DNA of 64,000 nt, taken from contig OY282377.1 in assembly GCA_958295785.1 (NCBI GenBank), forward strand, positions 820,394 through 884,393, in the 5' to 3' direction. The DNA comes from an uncultured Latescibacterota bacterium. Lineage in GTDB: Bacteria; Latescibacterota; UBA2968. The position numbers were made by a program, and so were the translations under genes. The notes beneath the pieces were generated by a model. It had not been told where the DNA came from. It was given only the letters and a program-made list of their open reading frames with translations, and searched no databases. This document shows positions 4,179-20,154 of the stretch, piece by piece (the first letter of the stretch is position 1; the number at the start of each line of letters is the position of its first letter).

Positions 4179-4838
4179 ATGGCACTCAAAGTCGAGGCAC
4201 TTTCCAAACATTTTGGCGATGTAAACGTTCTGCGGGACATCTCTTTTGAAATGGCGCGGGGGCAGTCGCTGAGTATTATGGGCCCTTCGGGATCGGGCAA
4301 GAGCACGTTGTTGCACATGCTGGGCACGCTGGATCGGCCATCGTCTGGGCTGATCGAAATCGGCGGGCAAAATCCCTTCGCGTTGCCCGAACTCGCACTC
4401 GCGCAATTCAGAAATCAGGGCATTGGATTCGTGTTTCAAGAACACCATCTCTTGCCGCAATACTCGGTTGTGGAAAACGTCTTGATCCCAACGCTGGCAT
4501 TTGGCAAAACGAGCAGCGATGCGCGAGATCGCGCCCGAGATCTCATTGACCGCGTGGGCCTGTTGCATCGCATCGACCATCGGCCGAGCGAATTATCGGG
4601 CGGCGAGCGTCAGCGCACAGCCGTTGCGCGCGCCCTCATCAACCGCCCGGCATTGCTCTTGTGCGACGAACCCACCGGCAGTTTGGATGGCGTGCGCGCA
4701 GAAGAAATCGCGGACCTGATCTTTGAATTGCACCGCGAGGAAAACAACATCTCGATTTGCGCCACGCACAGCACGGCACTCGCCCATCGCTTTGAGCGAC
4801 AATTTGAACTGCGGGGGGGAACGTGCTTCGAAGCCTGA
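4179..4838 (+). CDS. ABC transporter ATP-binding protein, LolD/MacB type
   Basis: 219 residues, the usual size of a LolD/MacB-class ATPase. Walker A is GPSGSGKST near residue 39, the signature motif is LSGGERQR near 145, and Walker B is ALLLCDEPTGSLD near 165. An AGGAGGGCGAA ribosome binding site precedes ATG 4179. Its end overlaps the start of the large FtsX-type permease by 16 bases, so the two form an operon and probably one complex. This class usually drives lipoprotein or peptide extraction and envelope processes rather than classical solute uptake. Confidence 0.93.
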   Translation: MALKVEALSKHFGDVNVLRDISFEMARGQSLSIMGPSGSGKSTLLHMLGTLDRPSSGLIEIGGQNPFALPELALAQFRNQGIGFVFQEHHLLPQYSVVENVLIPTLAFGKTSSDARDRARDLIDRVGLLHRIDHRPSELSGGERQRTAVARALINRPALLLCDEPTGSLDGVRAEEIADLIFELHREENNISICATHSTALAHRFERQFELRGGTCFEA

Positions 4839-7800
4839 CCTACTTCTGGCGAATCAATCTGGCAGTCGCGCTCGGCATCGCCATCGCCACAGCGGTTTTG
4901 ACCGGCGCGCTGATCGTGGGCGATTCCGTGCGCGGCAGCCTGAAGGACCTGTCCCTGAGTCGCTTGGGCAAAATTGACCACGCGCTCGTCAACGAGCGAT
5001 TTTTCCGCGCGAGTCTCGCACGCGATCTCAAAAGCGATCTCGACGAACGCTTTGCCGATGTGGTCCCGGCCATCAGCCTGCGCGGAACCGCGATACACGC
5101 CAACGCATACACCCGCGCATCTCGCGTTCAAATTCAGGGCATTGACAACCGCTTTGCAAATCTGTTTGATCACCCCTTGCCCGAACTGGAACGCAAGGCC
5201 GCATTCCCACCCGTTGTCATCAACGAATCCCTCCAGCGCGAACTCAACGCGCAAATCGGCGATCCCATTCTCCTGTCGTTTGAACAAGTCGGCAACAGTC
5301 ACCGCGAATCCCTATTTGGTCGCGCGTCAGATGCGGTGCAAACCATCCGCTTGACCCTCGCCGCCGCGTTGCCCGACAAGGGCATGGGACGCTTTGGCCT
5401 CCACACCCATCAGACCGTCCCGCGCAACGCCTACCTCGCGCTGCCCGTCTTGCAACGCGCACTGGGGCAAACCGACCGCGTCAACGCCTTGCTGGTCGCG
5501 GGCGCGCCCGATGCAGACCTTCAAACCGCACTTTCCCGAATCGCAACCCCGGACGATCTCGGCCTGGTCGTCCGCCGTGCAACCGATTACTTCTCTATCG
5601 AAAGCACGCAGTTCATCCTCAAAGCACACACCGCAGAAGCCATTCAAACACTCGCTACCGAACTCAACGCGCCCTCTGTGTCCATCCTCACCTACCTCGC
5701 CAACACCGCGCAAATCGGCACGCGGGAACTGCCCTATTCCACGATCTCCGCGATAGATGCTGGACACCTCGGTTCTTTTGACCTCATAGATGGATCATTG
5801 CAACTCGGCGACAATGGCATTTTGCTCAACGCCTGGGCAGCCGAAGATTTGCAAGCGCGGGTCGGCGATGAGGTCAAAATTGCCTATTACGAAGTCGCGC
5901 CCGGGGAAAAATTTCTCACTCGCTGGGCCACATTCCAACTCAAAGGCATTGTCGCAATGACGGGATTGGGCGCAGACGAGACCCTGTCGCCCGACTATCC
6001 GGGCCTGGGCGATGCCACCGACATGGCCGATTGGGAAGCCCCGTTCCCCATTGACCTAACGCGCGTTCGCCCCCGGGATGAAAATTATTGGGACACCTAT
6101 CGAGACGCGCCCAAAGCCTTTGTCTCTGCCGCGACCGGGCAGCGATTGTGGAAAAGCCGATTCGGCGCGTTCACCGGCATCCGCATCGGCCCCATCGACG
6201 GGCAAAGTCTTGAAACAACGCTTGGGCAATTTCTGGATCGCTTGCCCAATGCCATCGCGCCCGAATCCGTTGGCCTCGCGTTTCAGCCCGTCAAGCAACA
6301 GGGCATTGCCGCGGCGGCGGGCGCGACGGATTTCAGCGGGTTGTTCATCGGCTTCAGCCAATTCCTCATCATATCCGCAGCCCTGCTCGTGGGCTTGTTA
6401 TTTCGCCTGAGCGTGGAACAGCGCGGCAGAGAAGTTGGCCTGCGGATGGTGTCGGGCTACACGGCAAAAAAAATCCGTCGACAGTTCAGCCGCGAGGGTC
6501 TCGCCTTGGCCTGTGTGGGCGGGATATTGGGACTTGCGGGCGGGGTCGCGTACGCGCATCTCATCATGGTCGGCCTGCGAACGCATTGGGTCGGCGCGGT
6601 TGGCACGTCTGAGCTCGCGCTTCACATCCACGCACAGAGTTTGCTGTTGGGCTATGCGATTTCACTCGCTGTCATTTTATCGACAATCTGGCTCACGCTC
6701 CGCCGTTTGGGCGGCATTGCCATTCGCGCATTGTTGTCGGGCATCACCGAAGCCGCGCGTGCAAAACCGCGCACCAGATGGTACGCGCTGATCAGCCTCG
6801 CGCTCGCCGCGGTCGCGCTCACGGGCGCGGTCATGGTGGGGCCATCAGAGGGCGCAACCTTGTTTTTTGCCAGCGGCGCGCTGTGGATGGTTTCTGGCCT
6901 GTGCTTTTTGTCGCTCCATCTCAGGCGCGGGCCTCGTGTGCTCGGCGCAGGTGCGGTTGGCATGGGCATTCAAAACAGCGGGCGACAACCCGTGCGGAGT
7001 TTGCTGTGCGCCTCGCTCATCGGATGCGCGTGTTTTGTCCTCGTTGCAACCGGTGCGAACAGGCGCACGGACCTCGCGCAAAACATCGCCCGTGACAAAG
7101 CCTCGGGCACGGGTGGCTTTGCCCTCATCGCCGAAACAGATGTGCCGGTTTATCACGACTTTCATTCCAAAGACGGGCAATTTGAACTCGGGTTTTCGCA
7201 AGCAGAAGCAGAACGCTTGGATCGGACGCGGATCATCCCCCTGCGCGTTTTGCCCGGCGAAGACGCGAGTTGCCTCAACCTGTACCGCCCCGAAAGCCCG
7301 CGCATTTTGGGCGTTCCCGAATCCCTGATCCAGCGCGGCGGCTTTGCCTTTCAGCAGACCCTTGACGAAATGGAAAACCCCTGGGCCGCGTTGTCTCAAG
7401 ACTTGGGCGCAGGGGTGATTCCGGCTGTCGGCGATTACAATTCCGCCATGTGGATTTTGCACAAACAATTGGGCGGTGATATCGCAGTGCAAAACGAGGC
7501 GGGCGAAGAAGTGAAATTGAGATTGGTGGGCTTGTTAAAAACGAGCATTTTTCAAAGCGAATTGTTGATTTCCGAGAGCCATTTCTTGCAACACTTTCCC
7601 GGGCAAAGTGGATACCGCGCCTTTCTCATCGAAACGCAACACCCCGTTGAACTCACCGCGCTCCTCGAAAACCGCTTAAAAGACATCGGCTTGGACGCCA
7701 CGCCAACCGCGCAAAAACTCGCCCATTTTCAGGCCGTTGAAAACACCTATCTTTCCACCTTTCAAACCCTGGGCGGCTTGGGCTTGCTCTTGGGCACGCT

Positions 7801-8289: not shown

Positions 8290-9381
8290 TAGGACTTACG
8301 CAATCCCCATTGGAATATGAGGTGCTTTGAGTTGTTGTCTCAAGAAGTCAGCCATCCCCCGGTATTTGACTTGATAAATGTGTTTGTCCTGTTTGATAGG
8401 CCACCTGCGCGAGTCGAATCCAAACGAACATCGCACACCCAATATGATTTCGTACCATGCGTGCCAACCGACATGGACCCTTTTCAAGCCCGGTCACTTG
8501 TTTGACTTCGCGGTGAAATTGCTCAATTTTCCATCGTTGGTGACACACCTGTTGTACCCCTGAAGAATCGTTTTGAGCATGGTCGTTGGTTACGACATAC
8601 GCCGTGCGTCTGGCAGCAGACGCCACCCGGAATAATTTCACTTTGTGGTCTTTGGGGACCCCTCTGATTTTAATTGGCTTGCCTTGTTTGCGTTGCGCTT
8701 TCGTCCAAGTTAAGCTATCTACGCGCTGGTAGGGGGTTGTGCCTGCCGAATCGTCCACGCGCCGGTTCGTCTTGAGGGGACAAGAATAGGTTTTTTGCAT
8801 CTGCTCTCTGTGTCGCATGACTGTTTTGGTCGCATACCCACTGTCCATCAAGACCCCGGTAAAAGGGAGGCCCTTCTGATAGACCAACGCAGAGCGCATG
8901 TCCTTGAGAGGATCCCATTTGGTTTTGCCATCGCCTTGCGGGTCATAAATCCGATAGTCAATCAGCCAGAACCGATCCTGTTGCGGATTGACATAGACAC
9001 ATGTGACCACCCCAATGCCATTGATGACGCCTTGGGCGTTGCCGCTCTCTTGACGACGCACTCACGCGATCTTGCGCGCGTGTCGCTTGTCTAAAACCGT
9101 GTCATCAAAGATCACATAGCCTTCAGGCGTCAGCGCGATGTGGTCTTTGACGTGTTCCCACACCAAGCGGGGGGGATACGATCACCGGCGAGATAGCGGT
9201 TGATCATATCATGACTGAACCCTTCGCTATGGTCGGCGAAAGGGGTCAGGGTATCGTTGAGGGGACTGCTAAGCAGATACTGACAGTAATCCAAACGCGT
9301 CGGTTGGCGCATTGACACCTCCTCAAAGTGATAAATTTTACGGAATTGCACCCTTTTTTATCTCAGCATGCGTAAGTCCTA
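8290..9381 (-). mobile_element. IS701-like insertion sequence, copy 1 (inactive)
   Basis: 1092 bp bounded by perfect inverted ends TAGGACTTACGCA (8290) and TGCGTAAGTCCTA (ending 9381). It is flanked by a 5-bp direct repeat ACTAA (8285-8289 and 9382-9386). It has the same length as the second copy at 45475-46566. The flanking sequence, rejoined without the insert and one repeat, reads aatactaaattgattttc, which is the end of the MITE-like repeat seen elsewhere in this window, so the element jumped into that repeat. Its transposase gene is broken. Confidence 0.93.
8296..9312 (-). pseudogene. Transposase of IS701-like copy 1, disrupted
   Basis: The reading frame begins MRQPTRLDYCQYLLSS behind a GAGGAGG site, as in IS701/IS4-superfamily DDE transposases. 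It keeps the blocks VLMDSGYATK, YCPLKTNR, YVVTNDH and RWKIEQFHREVKQ. It is broken three times: a one-base deletion near 9170 (GDRIPP then frameshift), an in-frame TGA at 9064-9062 just before the RRQxSGN block, and a one-base insertion near 8378. The TGA is shared with the other copy; the two frameshifts are private. Intact length would be about 338 residues. Confidence 0.9.
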
Positions 9382-15367: not shown

Positions 15368-15760
15368 CTATTCCAGATCGAGCGCGGCCGAGTTGATGCA
15401 ATAGCGCAGGCCCGTAGGGGCCGGGCCATCGTCGAAGATGTGCCCGAGGTGGGCATCGCAACGGGCGCAGGTAACTTCAATGCGGCGCATGCCAAAACTC
15501 AGGTCTTCGTGCTGGTTGATGCGGGCGGGGTCAATGGCGTCAAAAAAGCTGGGCCATCCGCAGTGCGAGTCGAATTTTTGGTTTGAGCGAAAGAGTTCCG
15601 CATGGCAACACACACAGCGGTACACGCCTTCATCGCGGCAGTCCCAATACATGCCGGTGAAGGCGCGTTCCGTGCCTTTTTGACGACAGACATAATACTG
15701 TTCGGACGTGAGTTGGGCGCGCCATTCTGCGTCTGTTTTGGTGATTTTTTTCTCTGACAT
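15368..15760 (-). CDS. msrB: Peptide-methionine (R)-S-oxide reductase
   Basis: 130 residues, full length for MsrB. It reduces methionine-R-sulfoxide in proteins. The zinc-binding pairs CVCC (near residue 48) and CARC (near 97) are present, with GWPSFF in between. The catalytic residue is Cys in RYCINSAAL near the C-terminus, not selenocysteine. It starts 16 bases after the end of the UGSC-type gene on the same strand and so is probably the third gene of that operon, which links it to a thiol/selenol redox function. Confidence 0.95.
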
Positions 15761-15776: not shown

Positions 15777-16292
15777 TCACGTTGCGAGAACACCTCGCAA
15801 AATGCGTTCAATGGCAGCATCGGCAAGGGCCTGCATTTCTCTATCGGTGCGATCCTGAATGGGATGGGCGACAAAGACGCGGGCCGGATCAAATCCCAGC
15901 GCAACCGACTGGGCATCGGCGGCGTCGCGGAAGGGTTCGGATGCGACAAAGACGGTGGGAATGCCGCGCGCTTCCAAATGGGTCGTATCGTGCACACTGC
16001 ACGTTGTGCAAGACCCTCAATCGGCCAGGCCTTCGACGACCACGTCGCATTCGGCGGCGATTTGCTGCTGGAGTGCGATGGGCGCCGGGCGCGTGAACGT
16101 GGGTTTGACATAGCGGTTGACCGCATAGTTGCGCCGGGTCAAATGCGATGCGATGCGGTCGAGGAACACGTCGCCCCGGCTTTTGGAAATATCCAACAGT
16201 CCAATGGTCAATCCGTCCAGCGACCGGGGGCGTTTGACCCGTTCTCGGTGCGCCGATTTTTGTTCGGAAGTGGGATCGAGCAATTCGCTCAT
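15777..16292 (-). CDS. UGSC-type protein with an in-frame TGA, candidate selenoprotein
   Basis: Read through TGA at 16019-16017, the frame gives a 171-residue protein with position 92 in the string GLAD(U)GSCTTCSVHDT. That is the motif U/C-G-S-C that names the UGSC family of (seleno)proteins, found mainly in uncultivated bacteria. Both halves stay open in one frame, 91 codons before and 79 after. The second half (IPTVFVASEPFRDAADAQS...) continues the fold rather than starting a new one, so a nonsense mutation is less likely than recoding. A hairpin follows the TGA directly (separate entry). ATG 16292 overlaps the stop of the thioredoxin-like gene (ATGA). If TGA is read as stop, a 91-residue truncated product results. 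No sel genes lie in the window. Confidence 0.78.
15980..16019 (-). promoter_or_regulatory. Candidate bacterial SECIS element
   Basis: Immediately 3' of the TGA the transcript can fold as GGGUC (16016-16012) with GACCC (15984-15980), then an internal loop of 8 and 4 bases. Next comes CGUGCA (16003-15998) with UGCACG (15994-15989), closed by a GUG triloop. The apical loop lies about 20 bases after the UGA and starts with G, as in bacterial SECIS elements. The pairs are also coding, so comparison with relatives is needed. Confidence 0.65.
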
Positions 16293-17719
16293 GGCACAAT
16301 CTCCTTTGTGATGGGTTGGCTGCCGCCCCAACTGCTGATGATGGCAGAAAATAATCCCGCGTCTCCTCCTGCGCGAACAATGTGCAATGCGTTGTCTCGA
16401 AATTTGGGCATGGTTTCCTTTTCCTTTGTTCTCTCTTTTGAAATGCCTTCTGCAATGCCGCCCGCGCCTGCGATCAGTCCCGCAATCGGGATTTGGAGAT
16501 ATCGATTTAAGGTGTTGCGGAACCGGGCTTTTGACCATCCCGCGTCTGCATAGCGGCGGGTGTGTTCTGGCGAGATGACCAGCACGGGCGGCGGGCTGTT
16601 TGCGTGTTTGGGATGGCCGTCGGCTTTGAGGCAGGCGGCGAAAGACCGGCAAAGCGCGTCTGGATCTCGAGACGCTTGATCCATGACGGGGGTGACGCCG
16701 CTGCCTGCAAATAGCGTGACTGTGGATGCTTCGGGCGAAAATCCCCGTTCAACCGCGAGGGATTCCCAGGGCGAATCGCCTTCGCGTTCGGCAAAGCAAA
16801 AGGTGTATTTGCCCGGGTTGCCGAGCATGGCGCGATCAATGCCGCCGGGAACGCCGCCGCCGATGTTGCGAATCACGAGTTGCAGGGCGCGCCCGATAGT
16901 CGCATTGGCGCGGTTGCCCTGCCCGAGCGCGTTGATCCGCGCGTTCATGCCAATGTTGCGCGCAATCGGCCCATTGACCACAATCATCGGACCTGCAAAA
17001 AACGTGGTGGCGAGGAGGCCGTGCATGCCAAAGGCTTCTGCGAGGGCGGCTTCGACTGCGGCGAGCACCACGGGCAGGTATTCGGGTTTGCACCCGGCCA
17101 GGACCGCGTTGATGGCGACTTTTTCGACCGTACACGCGCTGTAATTGGGCGGTGTCATTCCCACCCCTTCATCGGGCGAGCGGGTCGTTCCCGTCAGCAT
17201 GTGCAAAATGCGTTCTTCAGTGGGCGGCACCACGGGCAGGCCATCGGTCCAACCGCGTTCAAAACACGCTTCGATTTCGTCTTCAAGCGCGCCGATAGCA
17301 ATGCGCCGGGCCGCGAGTTTGGTTTTGCCAAATTGGATGGCGAGTTTTTCGGGCACACCCGGTTCCGCGCTTTTCGATCCGCATCCGGGCAGAGAGCTGG
17401 GCAAGCTCGCGCCGAGATGCGTGCAGGCAGAGACGGATTCCCACTCGCCGCGATGCCAGCCAATGGCCCGCGCCACTTCTTTCCCATTTTCAAACCGCAA
17501 CAGGGTTGGAACGGTTTCGATACCGAGCCGATAAGAATGTGCCAAACTCGTGTCGTCAATCACCGTTGCAATCCCGCTGGGAAATTCGGGGTTGTCCTGC
17601 GTGTAAACCGCGAGCGCACTGGTCCGCTTTCCAAGTTGCCTGAGCACGGAGACAATGCGCGTGCAGGTCGGGCAGTCCTGTTTCACCACTGCAATTAAGC
17701 CATCGGGTCGTGTGCTCAT
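16289..17719 (-). CDS. Thioredoxin-like protein fused to a UGSC-associated domain
   Basis: 476 residues. Residues about 8-95 look like a thioredoxin-fold domain with the redox pair CPTC at 16-19 and a cis-Pro-like VPTL. From about 150 comes a long domain with GWTDGLPVVPPTEERI, NYSACTVEKVAINAVLAGC, and glycine-rich runs such as RNIGGGVPGGIDRAMLG. I recognise this second domain only as one that recurs beside UGSC proteins in uncultivated bacteria. The start at 17719 is chosen for AGGAGAAG upstream, eight bases away; the frame extends seven codons more. ATGA overlap with the UGSC gene shows translational coupling, which suggests the CPTC pair hands electrons to the selenoprotein. Confidence 0.7.
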   Translation of the reverse strand: MSTRPDGLIAVVKQDCPTCTRIVSVLRQLGKRTSALAVYTQDNPEFPSGIATVIDDTSLAHSYRLGIETVPTLLRFENGKEVARAIGWHRGEWESVSACTHLGASLPSSLPGCGSKSAEPGVPEKLAIQFGKTKLAARRIAIGALEDEIEACFERGWTDGLPVVPPTEERILHMLTGTTRSPDEGVGMTPPNYSACTVEKVAINAVLAGCKPEYLPVVLAAVEAALAEAFGMHGLLATTFFAGPMIVVNGPIARNIGMNARINALGQGNRANATIGRALQLVIRNIGGGVPGGIDRAMLGNPGKYTFCFAEREGDSPWESLAVERGFSPEASTVTLFAGSGVTPVMDQASRDPDALCRSFAACLKADGHPKHANSPPPVLVISPEHTRRYADAGWSKARFRNTLNRYLQIPIAGLIAGAGGIAEGISKERTKEKETMPKFRDNALHIVRAGGDAGLFSAIISSWGGSQPITKEIVP

Positions 17720-18177: not shown

Positions 18178-20154
18178 ATGGCACTTCCACAATCGCAACC
18201 CGAACCCACGCGCCCGCGGCGCATTGCGATCCGCGCTGTTCTCCTCGGCGCGGCGACCGCTGCAGGGCTCAACATTTACAGCGATTACACGGGCATGATC
18301 TTGGGGTCTGCCTCGCTGGTCAAATCGCAACTGTCCATGGCCATGCTCTTGCCCTTTGTCGCATGGCTGGCGATCAATCTCGCGCTCAAACTCGCATGGC
18401 CGCGCATGGCTTTGTCCAGCGCAGAGCTTTTGGTTATCTATAGCATGTCGTGGATCGTGGGCACGGTCTCGGCAAGTGGGTGGACGACCTATTGGGGCGG
18501 CGTTGTCAGCACCCCGTTTTACTATGCCTCGCCCGAAAACCGATGGGAAGAAATCCTCTTTGATATTTTGCCCTGGTGGTGTTTGCCCCAAGCGACGCCC
18601 GAAATAATCCGCACGTACTACGAGGGCCTTCCCGATGGCGCGGGCATCCCTTGGCGCGGGTGGCTGGCGTCTTTGCACTGGTGGTTTGCGGTATCTATCG
18701 CCCTCGTTGTTGCCGGCTTGTGCCTCGCGGTCATTTTTCAAAAACAATGGGAAGAAAACGAGCGGCTCACGTTTCCGCTCGCCGCGTTTCCCATTGCCCT
18801 GACCGAGGGCTTTGACGAACCTGGCCGCGTCATTCCCGGCATTTTTTGCAACAAGCTCTTTTGGGCGGGTTTCTTTGTGGTTTTCGGGGTTTTTGCCTGG
18901 AACATCCTCGGGTATTTCGCCATCAGCTTGCCGCGCATTGGCATTTACGACGGTTATCTGACCAAAGAAGTGCCCATCGCACGCGACTTTCCATCGTTCT
19001 ACTTGCGTATCTTGCCGCCCGTTGTGGGCCTGACCTACTTGTGCAATCTCGACATTCTCTTCAGTTTCTGGGCGTTTCGCCTCATCGCCATTGTCAAAGA
19101 AGGGGTGATGTCCCGCACGGGCTTTAATGTCGGGCTTTCCGGGCAACAGGCCGAAGCGGGTGAGGTCCTCATTTTGGAATCTCACGGCGCGTTCATCTTT
19201 CTCGCGCTGTGGGCGATCTGGGTCGCACGCGGCCATTTGCGCCATGTTCTCCGCGCAGCACTTACGGGCCGTGCAGATGACGGTCTCATCGCCTATCGCT
19301 TTGCCCTGCTCGGCTTTCTCGCGGCAACGCTCTTTGTTTTTGGCTGGTTCGTGGCTTTGGGGCTGTCGCCCCTGCTCGCCCTCTTTCACCTCTTTCTGCT
19401 CTACGCCGCCTATTTCACCATTGCCAAATACACCGCAGCCAGCGGTTTTTCCTATCTCTTTCCCGTGGGCGGCAAGGGGGGCGAGATTGTCGAAATTTTC
19501 ACGGGAACCGCAACGCTTACGCAACAAAACGCGGTTGCGCTGGGCATTATCAATTCCAGCGCGTTTTTTGGCAATTCGCGCATTCCCGCGTGGCCCGCGC
19601 TGCCCCATCACCTCAAACTCTTGGGCAATGACTTCCGCCGCCGCTGGGTTTTTTGGACCGTCCTGTTGGCCTTTGCCGCGGGTTTCTTCGGCTCGTGCCT
19701 GTTCATCATCTATTTGGGCTATCATTACGCGGGTCAAAACCTCGGCCTGTCGGGTTTTAGCGGCTCGAATATTCGCACGTATGACCGCATGGTTTCCGCC
19801 ATTGTCGGCGCGGACAAAACGGTTTTTGACCCCGGCAAAATAGGGGTCTGGGTTTTTGGCCTCGCGCAAGCTGGCCTGCTCATGCTCCTTCGCAATCGCG
19901 TCCCGTGGTGGCCCTTGCACCCGCTCGGATTGGCCTTTCAGCGCATGCAAGGCTCGCGCATCTATGCGTTCAGCATCTTTCTCACATGGGCGTCCAAACT
20001 CATTATTTTGCGGATTGGCGGCATCGCGCTCTATCGGCGGTGTGTCCCGTTGTTCTTTGGCTTGGTGATCGGTTATGTGGTCGGCGTTGGCGTTTCCTCT
20101 GTCGTCGATTTCACCTTTTTCCCCGAGGACGGTCATTCTGTTCACGGCTGGTGA
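18178..20154 (+). CDS. Large polytopic membrane protein, DUF6785/DUF6784-like
   Basis: 658 residues with about 13-14 hydrophobic segments. It has a conserved early region (LNIYSDYTGMILGSASLVKS) and a polar loop VSTPFYYASPENRWEEI typical of the DUF6785 group found in Planctomycetes, Latescibacterota and relatives. The family is distantly OPT-transporter-like and its substrate is unknown. The start codon lies five bases after a truncated repeat copy and has no clear ribosome binding site, so the true start or its upstream signals may have been replaced by the repeat. A mirrored frame of similar length on the other strand is an artefact of codon bias. Confidence 0.85.
   Translation: MALPQSQPEPTRPRRIAIRAVLLGAATAAGLNIYSDYTGMILGSASLVKSQLSMAMLLPFVAWLAINLALKLAWPRMALSSAELLVIYSMSWIVGTVSASGWTTYWGGVVSTPFYYASPENRWEEILFDILPWWCLPQATPEIIRTYYEGLPDGAGIPWRGWLASLHWWFAVSIALVVAGLCLAVIFQKQWEENERLTFPLAAFPIALTEGFDEPGRVIPGIFCNKLFWAGFFVVFGVFAWNILGYFAISLPRIGIYDGYLTKEVPIARDFPSFYLRILPPVVGLTYLCNLDILFSFWAFRLIAIVKEGVMSRTGFNVGLSGQQAEAGEVLILESHGAFIFLALWAIWVARGHLRHVLRAALTGRADDGLIAYRFALLGFLAATLFVFGWFVALGLSPLLALFHLFLLYAAYFTIAKYTAASGFSYLFPVGGKGGEIVEIFTGTATLTQQNAVALGIINSSAFFGNSRIPAWPALPHHLKLLGNDFRRRWVFWTVLLAFAAGFFGSCLFIIYLGYHYAGQNLGLSGFSGSNIRTYDRMVSAIVGADKTVFDPGKIGVWVFGLAQAGLLMLLRNRVPWWPLHPLGLAFQRMQGSRIYAFSIFLTWASKLIILRIGGIALYRRCVPLFFGLVIGYVVGVGVSSVVDFTFFPEDGHSVHGW

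Follow-up and report, generated by a model that had tools for sequence, protein, structure and literature searches.

A UGSC-family selenoprotein and its nearly obligate, unnamed partner domain in a Latescibacterota genome: possible halves of a thioredoxin-coupled reductase

Gene order and decoding of the in-frame TGA

The window, as the whole 64,000-nucleotide stretch of DNA analyzed here is called, is part of a genome that consists of a single contig of 5.66 Mb and has mostly Candidatus Latescibacterota MAGs as its nearest named relatives. On its minus strand three genes follow one another, encoding a 476-aa protein (referred to below as the partner), a UGSC family protein and MsrB (Table 1), with the first two overlapping by ATGA and with 16 bases separating the UGSC stop from the MsrB start. 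The UGSC gene begins with the ATG at 16292 and runs through 91 codons to an in-frame TGA, following which the frame stays open for 79 more codons up to a TGA stop at 15779–15777; the GGG TCT TGC directly 3' of the internal TGA creates, upon read-through, the motif U-G-S-C at residues 92–95. The first-pass annotation of this DNA had given the coordinates, the overlap, both codon counts and the intergenic gap correctly, and the membership in the UGSC (seleno)protein family that it proposed is borne out by matches of the read-through product to NF041046 (152.6 bits, with a curated cut-off of 125) and to PF24696 (150.6 bits, with a cut-off of 25). A divergent gene for a DUF6785/DUF6784 membrane protein (window positions 18178–20154, plus strand) adjoins the operon throughout the genus.

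Table 1. Positions of the genes and features of the UGSC locus in the window
Feature	Positions	Strand	Remarks
Partner gene	16289..17719	-	476 aa; two fused domains, the N-terminal one thioredoxin-like and the other unnamed (~335 aa)
CPTC motif (Cys16–Cys19) of the thioredoxin-like domain	17663..17674	-	probable electron donor; CxTC conserved
Unnamed C-terminal domain (GWTDGLPVVPPT...), residues 140–476	16292..17302	-	beside or fused to UGSC in relatives
UGSC family selenoprotein gene	15777..16292	-	171 aa; Sec92 followed by Cys95 (second) and Cys98 (third); matches NF041046 and PF24696
Selenocysteine codon TGA (Sec92)	16017..16019	-	Sec/Cys column in homologues; sel genes in the genome
SECIS-type hairpin	15980..16016	-	lower stem 16016–16012/15984–15980; apical stem 16003–15998/15994–15989; GUG loop 15997–15995
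MsrB gene, ordinary catalytic Cys (RYCINSAAL)	15368..15760	-	TIGR00357, 185 bits; genus-specific neighbor

The sel genes that the annotation proposed to look for in the same genome are all present with matches over the cut-offs, namely selA (573 bits) with selB directly behind it (386 bits), a tRNA-Sec (70 bits, anticodon UCA; called tRNA-Sec TCA by ARAGORN) and, about 120 bases from the latter, selD (369 bits). This selD (G000:C1:2160613–2161746) has an in-frame TGA of its own (CGGUASKL) and a similar hairpin after it. The UGSC gene was found in 17 of 60 relatives, each copy with exactly one in-frame TGA, and a tRNA-Sec match of more than 68 bits accompanies it in all 17. In a wider set, the best 80 loci from a search of 84,980 species genomes, the selenocysteine (Sec) codon is TGA in 76, TAG in three and cut by a contig end in one. 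The three TAG codons (L077, L080 and L086, position 9284–9286 in each) belong to Blastococcus, and UGSC genes of this kind fall under the UAG-encoded Sec already known in the UGSC family from the Geodermatophilaceae (PMC5330540), in which they differ from the window's gene with its ordinary TGA. The family alignment, which had been suggested as a further check, holds Sec or Cys in the column of residue 92 in all homologues except fused forms from Vibrio and Sporomusa, which are degenerate and have Met in this place, and Cys95 is invariant among 46 UGSC members.

The RNA after the TGA is predicted to fold into two stems, a lower one of GGGUC/GACCC and an apical one of CGUGCA/UGCACG, the latter capped by a GUG loop that starts 20 nt after the UGA. 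The folding energy of the window's sequence alone is unexceptional, with z-scores of −1.1 to +0.2 in four arbitrary folding windows, and the exact hairpin, the bounds of which were picked after the fold was seen, has a z-score of −2.05. A different picture is provided by 84 homologues compared with 300 randomized sets, in which synonymous codons were drawn from each gene's own usage: 5.81 of the 6 apical pairs are kept as opposed to 3.87 ± 0.10 after randomization, the loop opens with GU in 84 of 84 as opposed to an expected 15%, and the mean MFE is −14.6 as opposed to −8.8 ± 0.3 kcal/mol, none of these three values being attained in any of the 300 sets; because the homologues are related, these counts do not represent independent events. 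The pairing of the lower stem is attained by 34 of the 300 sets in the whole collection and by none of 500 among the close relatives of the window. The search for covarying pairs, likewise proposed earlier, yielded compensatory changes. In L088 both sides of pair 21–27 have changed (TGC/GTG to TGT/GTA), pair 18–30 occurs among the homologues as G-C, G-U or A-U and never as a mismatch, and two plasmid-borne Sec forms combine TGG with GTC and thereby restore the pairing; plasmid-borne Cys forms keep neither loop nor stem, both plasmid observations being direct readings of the sequences. A search of the window against Rfam gave no match at the gathering thresholds and therefore lends no support either way. 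As judged from the homologous sequences, the hairpin after the TGA is preserved by synonymous codon choice far beyond chance, with the apical stem and the GU of the loop selected at synonymous sites, and the SECIS-like two-stem hairpin of the first reading is confirmed.

Under the standard code the 91-codon open reading frame simply ends at the TGA, and the gene might on that account be considered broken, the TGA being a genuine stop and everything downstream of it in decay. That explanation is refuted by a family match that spans the TGA, by the presence of the TGA in 17 of 17 relatives, by the selection acting on the hairpin and by a complete Sec machinery, which leave it with a negligible probability; of the three signs of a broken gene named beforehand, i.e. 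a genome devoid of sel genes, an ordinary residue at the Sec position and a lack of any conserved fold, none was found. Comparative evidence of this kind indicates that the TGA at 16019–16017 is almost certainly read as selenocysteine, which is inserted into the UGSC protein.

The partner protein and the gene neighborhoods

The gene upstream of UGSC had been described as thioredoxin-like, which holds for its N-terminal domain but not for the main part of the 476-aa protein. That main part is an unnamed domain, in which C210, C308, N272, R277 and D295 are conserved across a diverse set; searches against Pfam and NCBIfam gave no family match, and a search of the PDB by sequence gave no solved relative. 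In the structural model of the partner the thioredoxin-like part is poorly modeled, as just a single sequence in the alignment extended over it, and the best PDB match, a class I fumarase (E 0.08, TM-score about 0.2), is not meaningful. A CxTC motif, which marks the thioredoxin-like part, precedes the unnamed domain at a fixed distance in 73 of 79 loci. The open frame of the partner in L043 and L044, which are from the same genus, is devoid of this part, and in Arthrobacter, Variovorax sp. SRS16 and Roseovarius trxA-trxB or trxB adjoin the pair.

The association of the unnamed domain with UGSC was assessed in 558 relatives, which were found by searching with the unnamed domain alone and not with UGSC, and in the best 80 of these UGSC lies directly downstream of the domain in every locus (80/80). 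Within the set of 60 relatives, 13 have the domain, always beside or fused to UGSC (13/13). On plasmids it occurs in 24 records, with UGSC detected by tblastn in 12 and, by profile, a UGSC-like domain in all of the remaining records examined but that of Haladaptatus, which gives a pairing in 23 of 24 records if five from Neorhizobium are judged by the one examined. The two are fused into one protein in L052, in Variovorax boronicumulans and in Neorhizobium. On the evidence of these sequences, UGSC has a conserved and nearly obligate partner in the unnamed C-terminal domain encoded by the upstream gene, and the two very probably form one functional unit.

The fusion in L052 (genome G019, of the same order as the window's; 4496–6382, minus strand) contains a UGSC-like domain with the motif USTC and a TGA, and is followed by an open reading frame the start of which resembles hydantoinase/5-oxoprolinase. 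Short UGSC-related genes with a TGA and a different motif, UCGASSC, are present in L053, L054, L055 and L056, and no partner domain was found within the flanks of this short variant.

In about ten loci from beta- and gammaproteobacteria, selA-selB lie directly downstream of UGSC, joined in six by tRNA-Sec; no selD was found in the flanks of these loci. The arrangement, a compact Sec cassette in which selA and/or selB come right after UGSC, is seen in L062, L066, L072, L084, L112 and L115 and also in L067, L075, L087, L113 and L128. On a Paracoccus plasmid, selB is located near the pair.

The first-pass annotation saw in the adjacency of UGSC and MsrB a meaningful unit of selenol chemistry and methionine sulfoxide repair, a proposal that finds no support in the wider comparison. 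MsrB adjoins UGSC in 3 of the 80 loci (the best 80 of 558 relatives), all of them from the window's genus, throughout which it follows UGSC with a gap of up to about 750 bp (L049). MsrB as a functional partner is rejected on this ground; in the preferred reading it is a local passenger and not part of the UGSC unit. The neighbors elsewhere comprise CoA transferases, lyases, (acyl-CoA) ligases, a thiolase, TRAP/TTT transporters, aconitase X and a frame with a hydantoinase-like start, which point to the catabolism of small organic acids and, since the neighborhoods vary widely, indicate no single substrate.

Predicted fold, kinship and proposed reaction

The AlphaFold model of UGSC is of high confidence (pLDDT 92, pTM 0.86) and has a parallel sheet of five strands that alternate with helices. 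Its best PDB matches are flavodoxin-like or Rossmann-like, with TM-scores of only 0.4–0.5; there is no thioredoxin structure among the 50 matches listed, and no solved relatives were found by sequence. The fold as modeled would be flavodoxin-like and not that of thioredoxin, in which the model disagrees with the thioredoxin-like fold suggested for UGSC in the GOS study (PMC2398784).

A comparison of profiles by hhalign matched UGSC, with its distant members included, to PrdB with a probability of 91.9% (P 6.8e-7) and a score of 50, where 100 column shuffles gave 13.0 ± 2.6 and never more than 22.5; this is one pairwise comparison with a shallow PrdB alignment, and it became strong after the distant UGSC members had been added, a choice made once. 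The narrower UGSC alignment gave a match that is suggestive only (36%, P 3.7e-4). The alignment places the Sec residues of the two proteins in one column and likewise matches their GIPT sequences. The profile comparison thus identifies UGSC as a probable distant relative of PrdB/GrdB (PF07355), the Sec-containing selenoprotein B of D-proline and glycine reductase, which is characterized by a UxxCxxC motif (PMC13188914). In both, a beta strand leads into Sec-G-S/T-C, which is succeeded by a helix and by a strand with GIPT, and both have a separate partner subunit. UGSC differs from PrdB/GrdB in being smaller, in the absence of a PF07355 match and in a partner that is not PrdA-like, PrdA/GrdE being a pyruvoyl proprotein. 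As PF07355 did not match any of 46 UGSC members at E-values up to 10, UGSC lies outside that family, and PF07355 has no match in the window's own genome either. The partner domain was considered as a PrdA homologue and rejected (0.2% probability, with a PrdA alignment of only 3 sequences).

Taking read-through, partner unit and redox mechanism together, we regard it as likely that UGSC provides the Sec subunit of a reductase fed by thioredoxin. In the model proposed here, SelB, tRNA-Sec and the hairpin would insert Sec92 at the TGA, giving the 171-aa selenoprotein, and this product and the upstream protein would make up a single redox enzyme. Substrate binding is most likely the role of the unnamed domain; Sec92 would attack or reduce the substrate, ending as a selenenylsulfide with Cys95, following which the fused thioredoxin-like domain (Cys16-Pro-Thr-Cys19) would regenerate the selenol. 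Thioredoxin is the known reductant for glycine reductase. The redox part of the model, with these roles for Sec92, Cys95 and the thioredoxin-like domain, has in our judgment about an even chance of being right. Given the distant kinship of UGSC to PrdB/GrdB, the best guess for the reaction would be, by analogy, that a small organic acid or an amino-acid derivative is reduced or reductively cleaved.

Two other explanations have to be weighed against the thioredoxin-fed reductase. UGSC could be a general thiol-redox or peroxide-repair selenoprotein, reducing disulfides or peroxides while MsrB repairs methionine, as its UxxC motif, the thioredoxin-like domain upstream and an MsrB gene that follows 16 bases downstream, an order kept throughout the genus, would lead one to expect. 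Outside the genus, however, the neighborhood is devoid of MsrB and is made up of catabolic genes (CoA transferases, lyases, acyl-CoA ligases, thiolase, TRAP/TTT transporters), and the unnamed domain, as well as its fusion to UGSC, would be left unexplained, all of which makes this possibility an unlikely one. Somewhat less probable still is that the two domains constitute a non-redox enzyme or a binding protein, with Sec/Cys serving for binding or regulation only. This would suit the Vibrio and Sporomusa fusions (L157:3323–5008 and L158:3332–5056), which keep both domains and have ADMGT or GDMGT in place of ADUGS; since they carry Met for Sec, part of the family has left Sec redox chemistry. 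Elsewhere, however, Sec/Cys is kept, with Cys95 unchanged throughout the 46 members, a thioredoxin-like domain or thioredoxin genes are attached, and the maintenance of Sec machinery beside the gene is costly. The two fusions read Met-Gly-Thr-Ser where Sec-Gly-Ser-Cys belongs, and adjoin genes for aconitase X and DUF126.

The window's selenoprotein belongs to a family that has been known since 2008, when the GOS study described UGSC and a fusion of UGSC to a conserved domain called “Unknown_1” (PMC2398784), perhaps the very domain that partners UGSC in the window. With the known family (NF041046; PF24696; PMC2398784) the window's gene shares the UGSC motif, the decoding of Sec and the existence of Cys forms; it differs from the GOS fusion in that the partner, with its thioredoxin-like domain, is encoded by a gene of its own that overlaps the UGSC gene, and in that MsrB follows. 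What is worth following up is the nearly obligate unnamed partner, a domain conserved in hundreds of genomes that has no family entry, along with the distant PrdB kinship; the partner, its attached thioredoxin-like domain and the kinship to D-proline reductase give a testable guess, namely a two-part reductase. More tentatively, and with somewhat less than an even chance, UGSC and the unnamed domain may be the halves of a widespread, uncharacterized class of thioredoxin-coupled reductases, akin to D-proline/glycine reductase via the Sec subunit only, which would extend over many bacterial phyla and, with Cys, the haloarchaea, and which some Proteobacteria would carry as a cassette, complete with selA, selB and tRNA-Sec of its own. 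A separate GrdB/PrdB-like selenoprotein candidate is carried by two class-level relatives, with an in-frame TGA (UPNC) in L146 (901–2076, minus strand).
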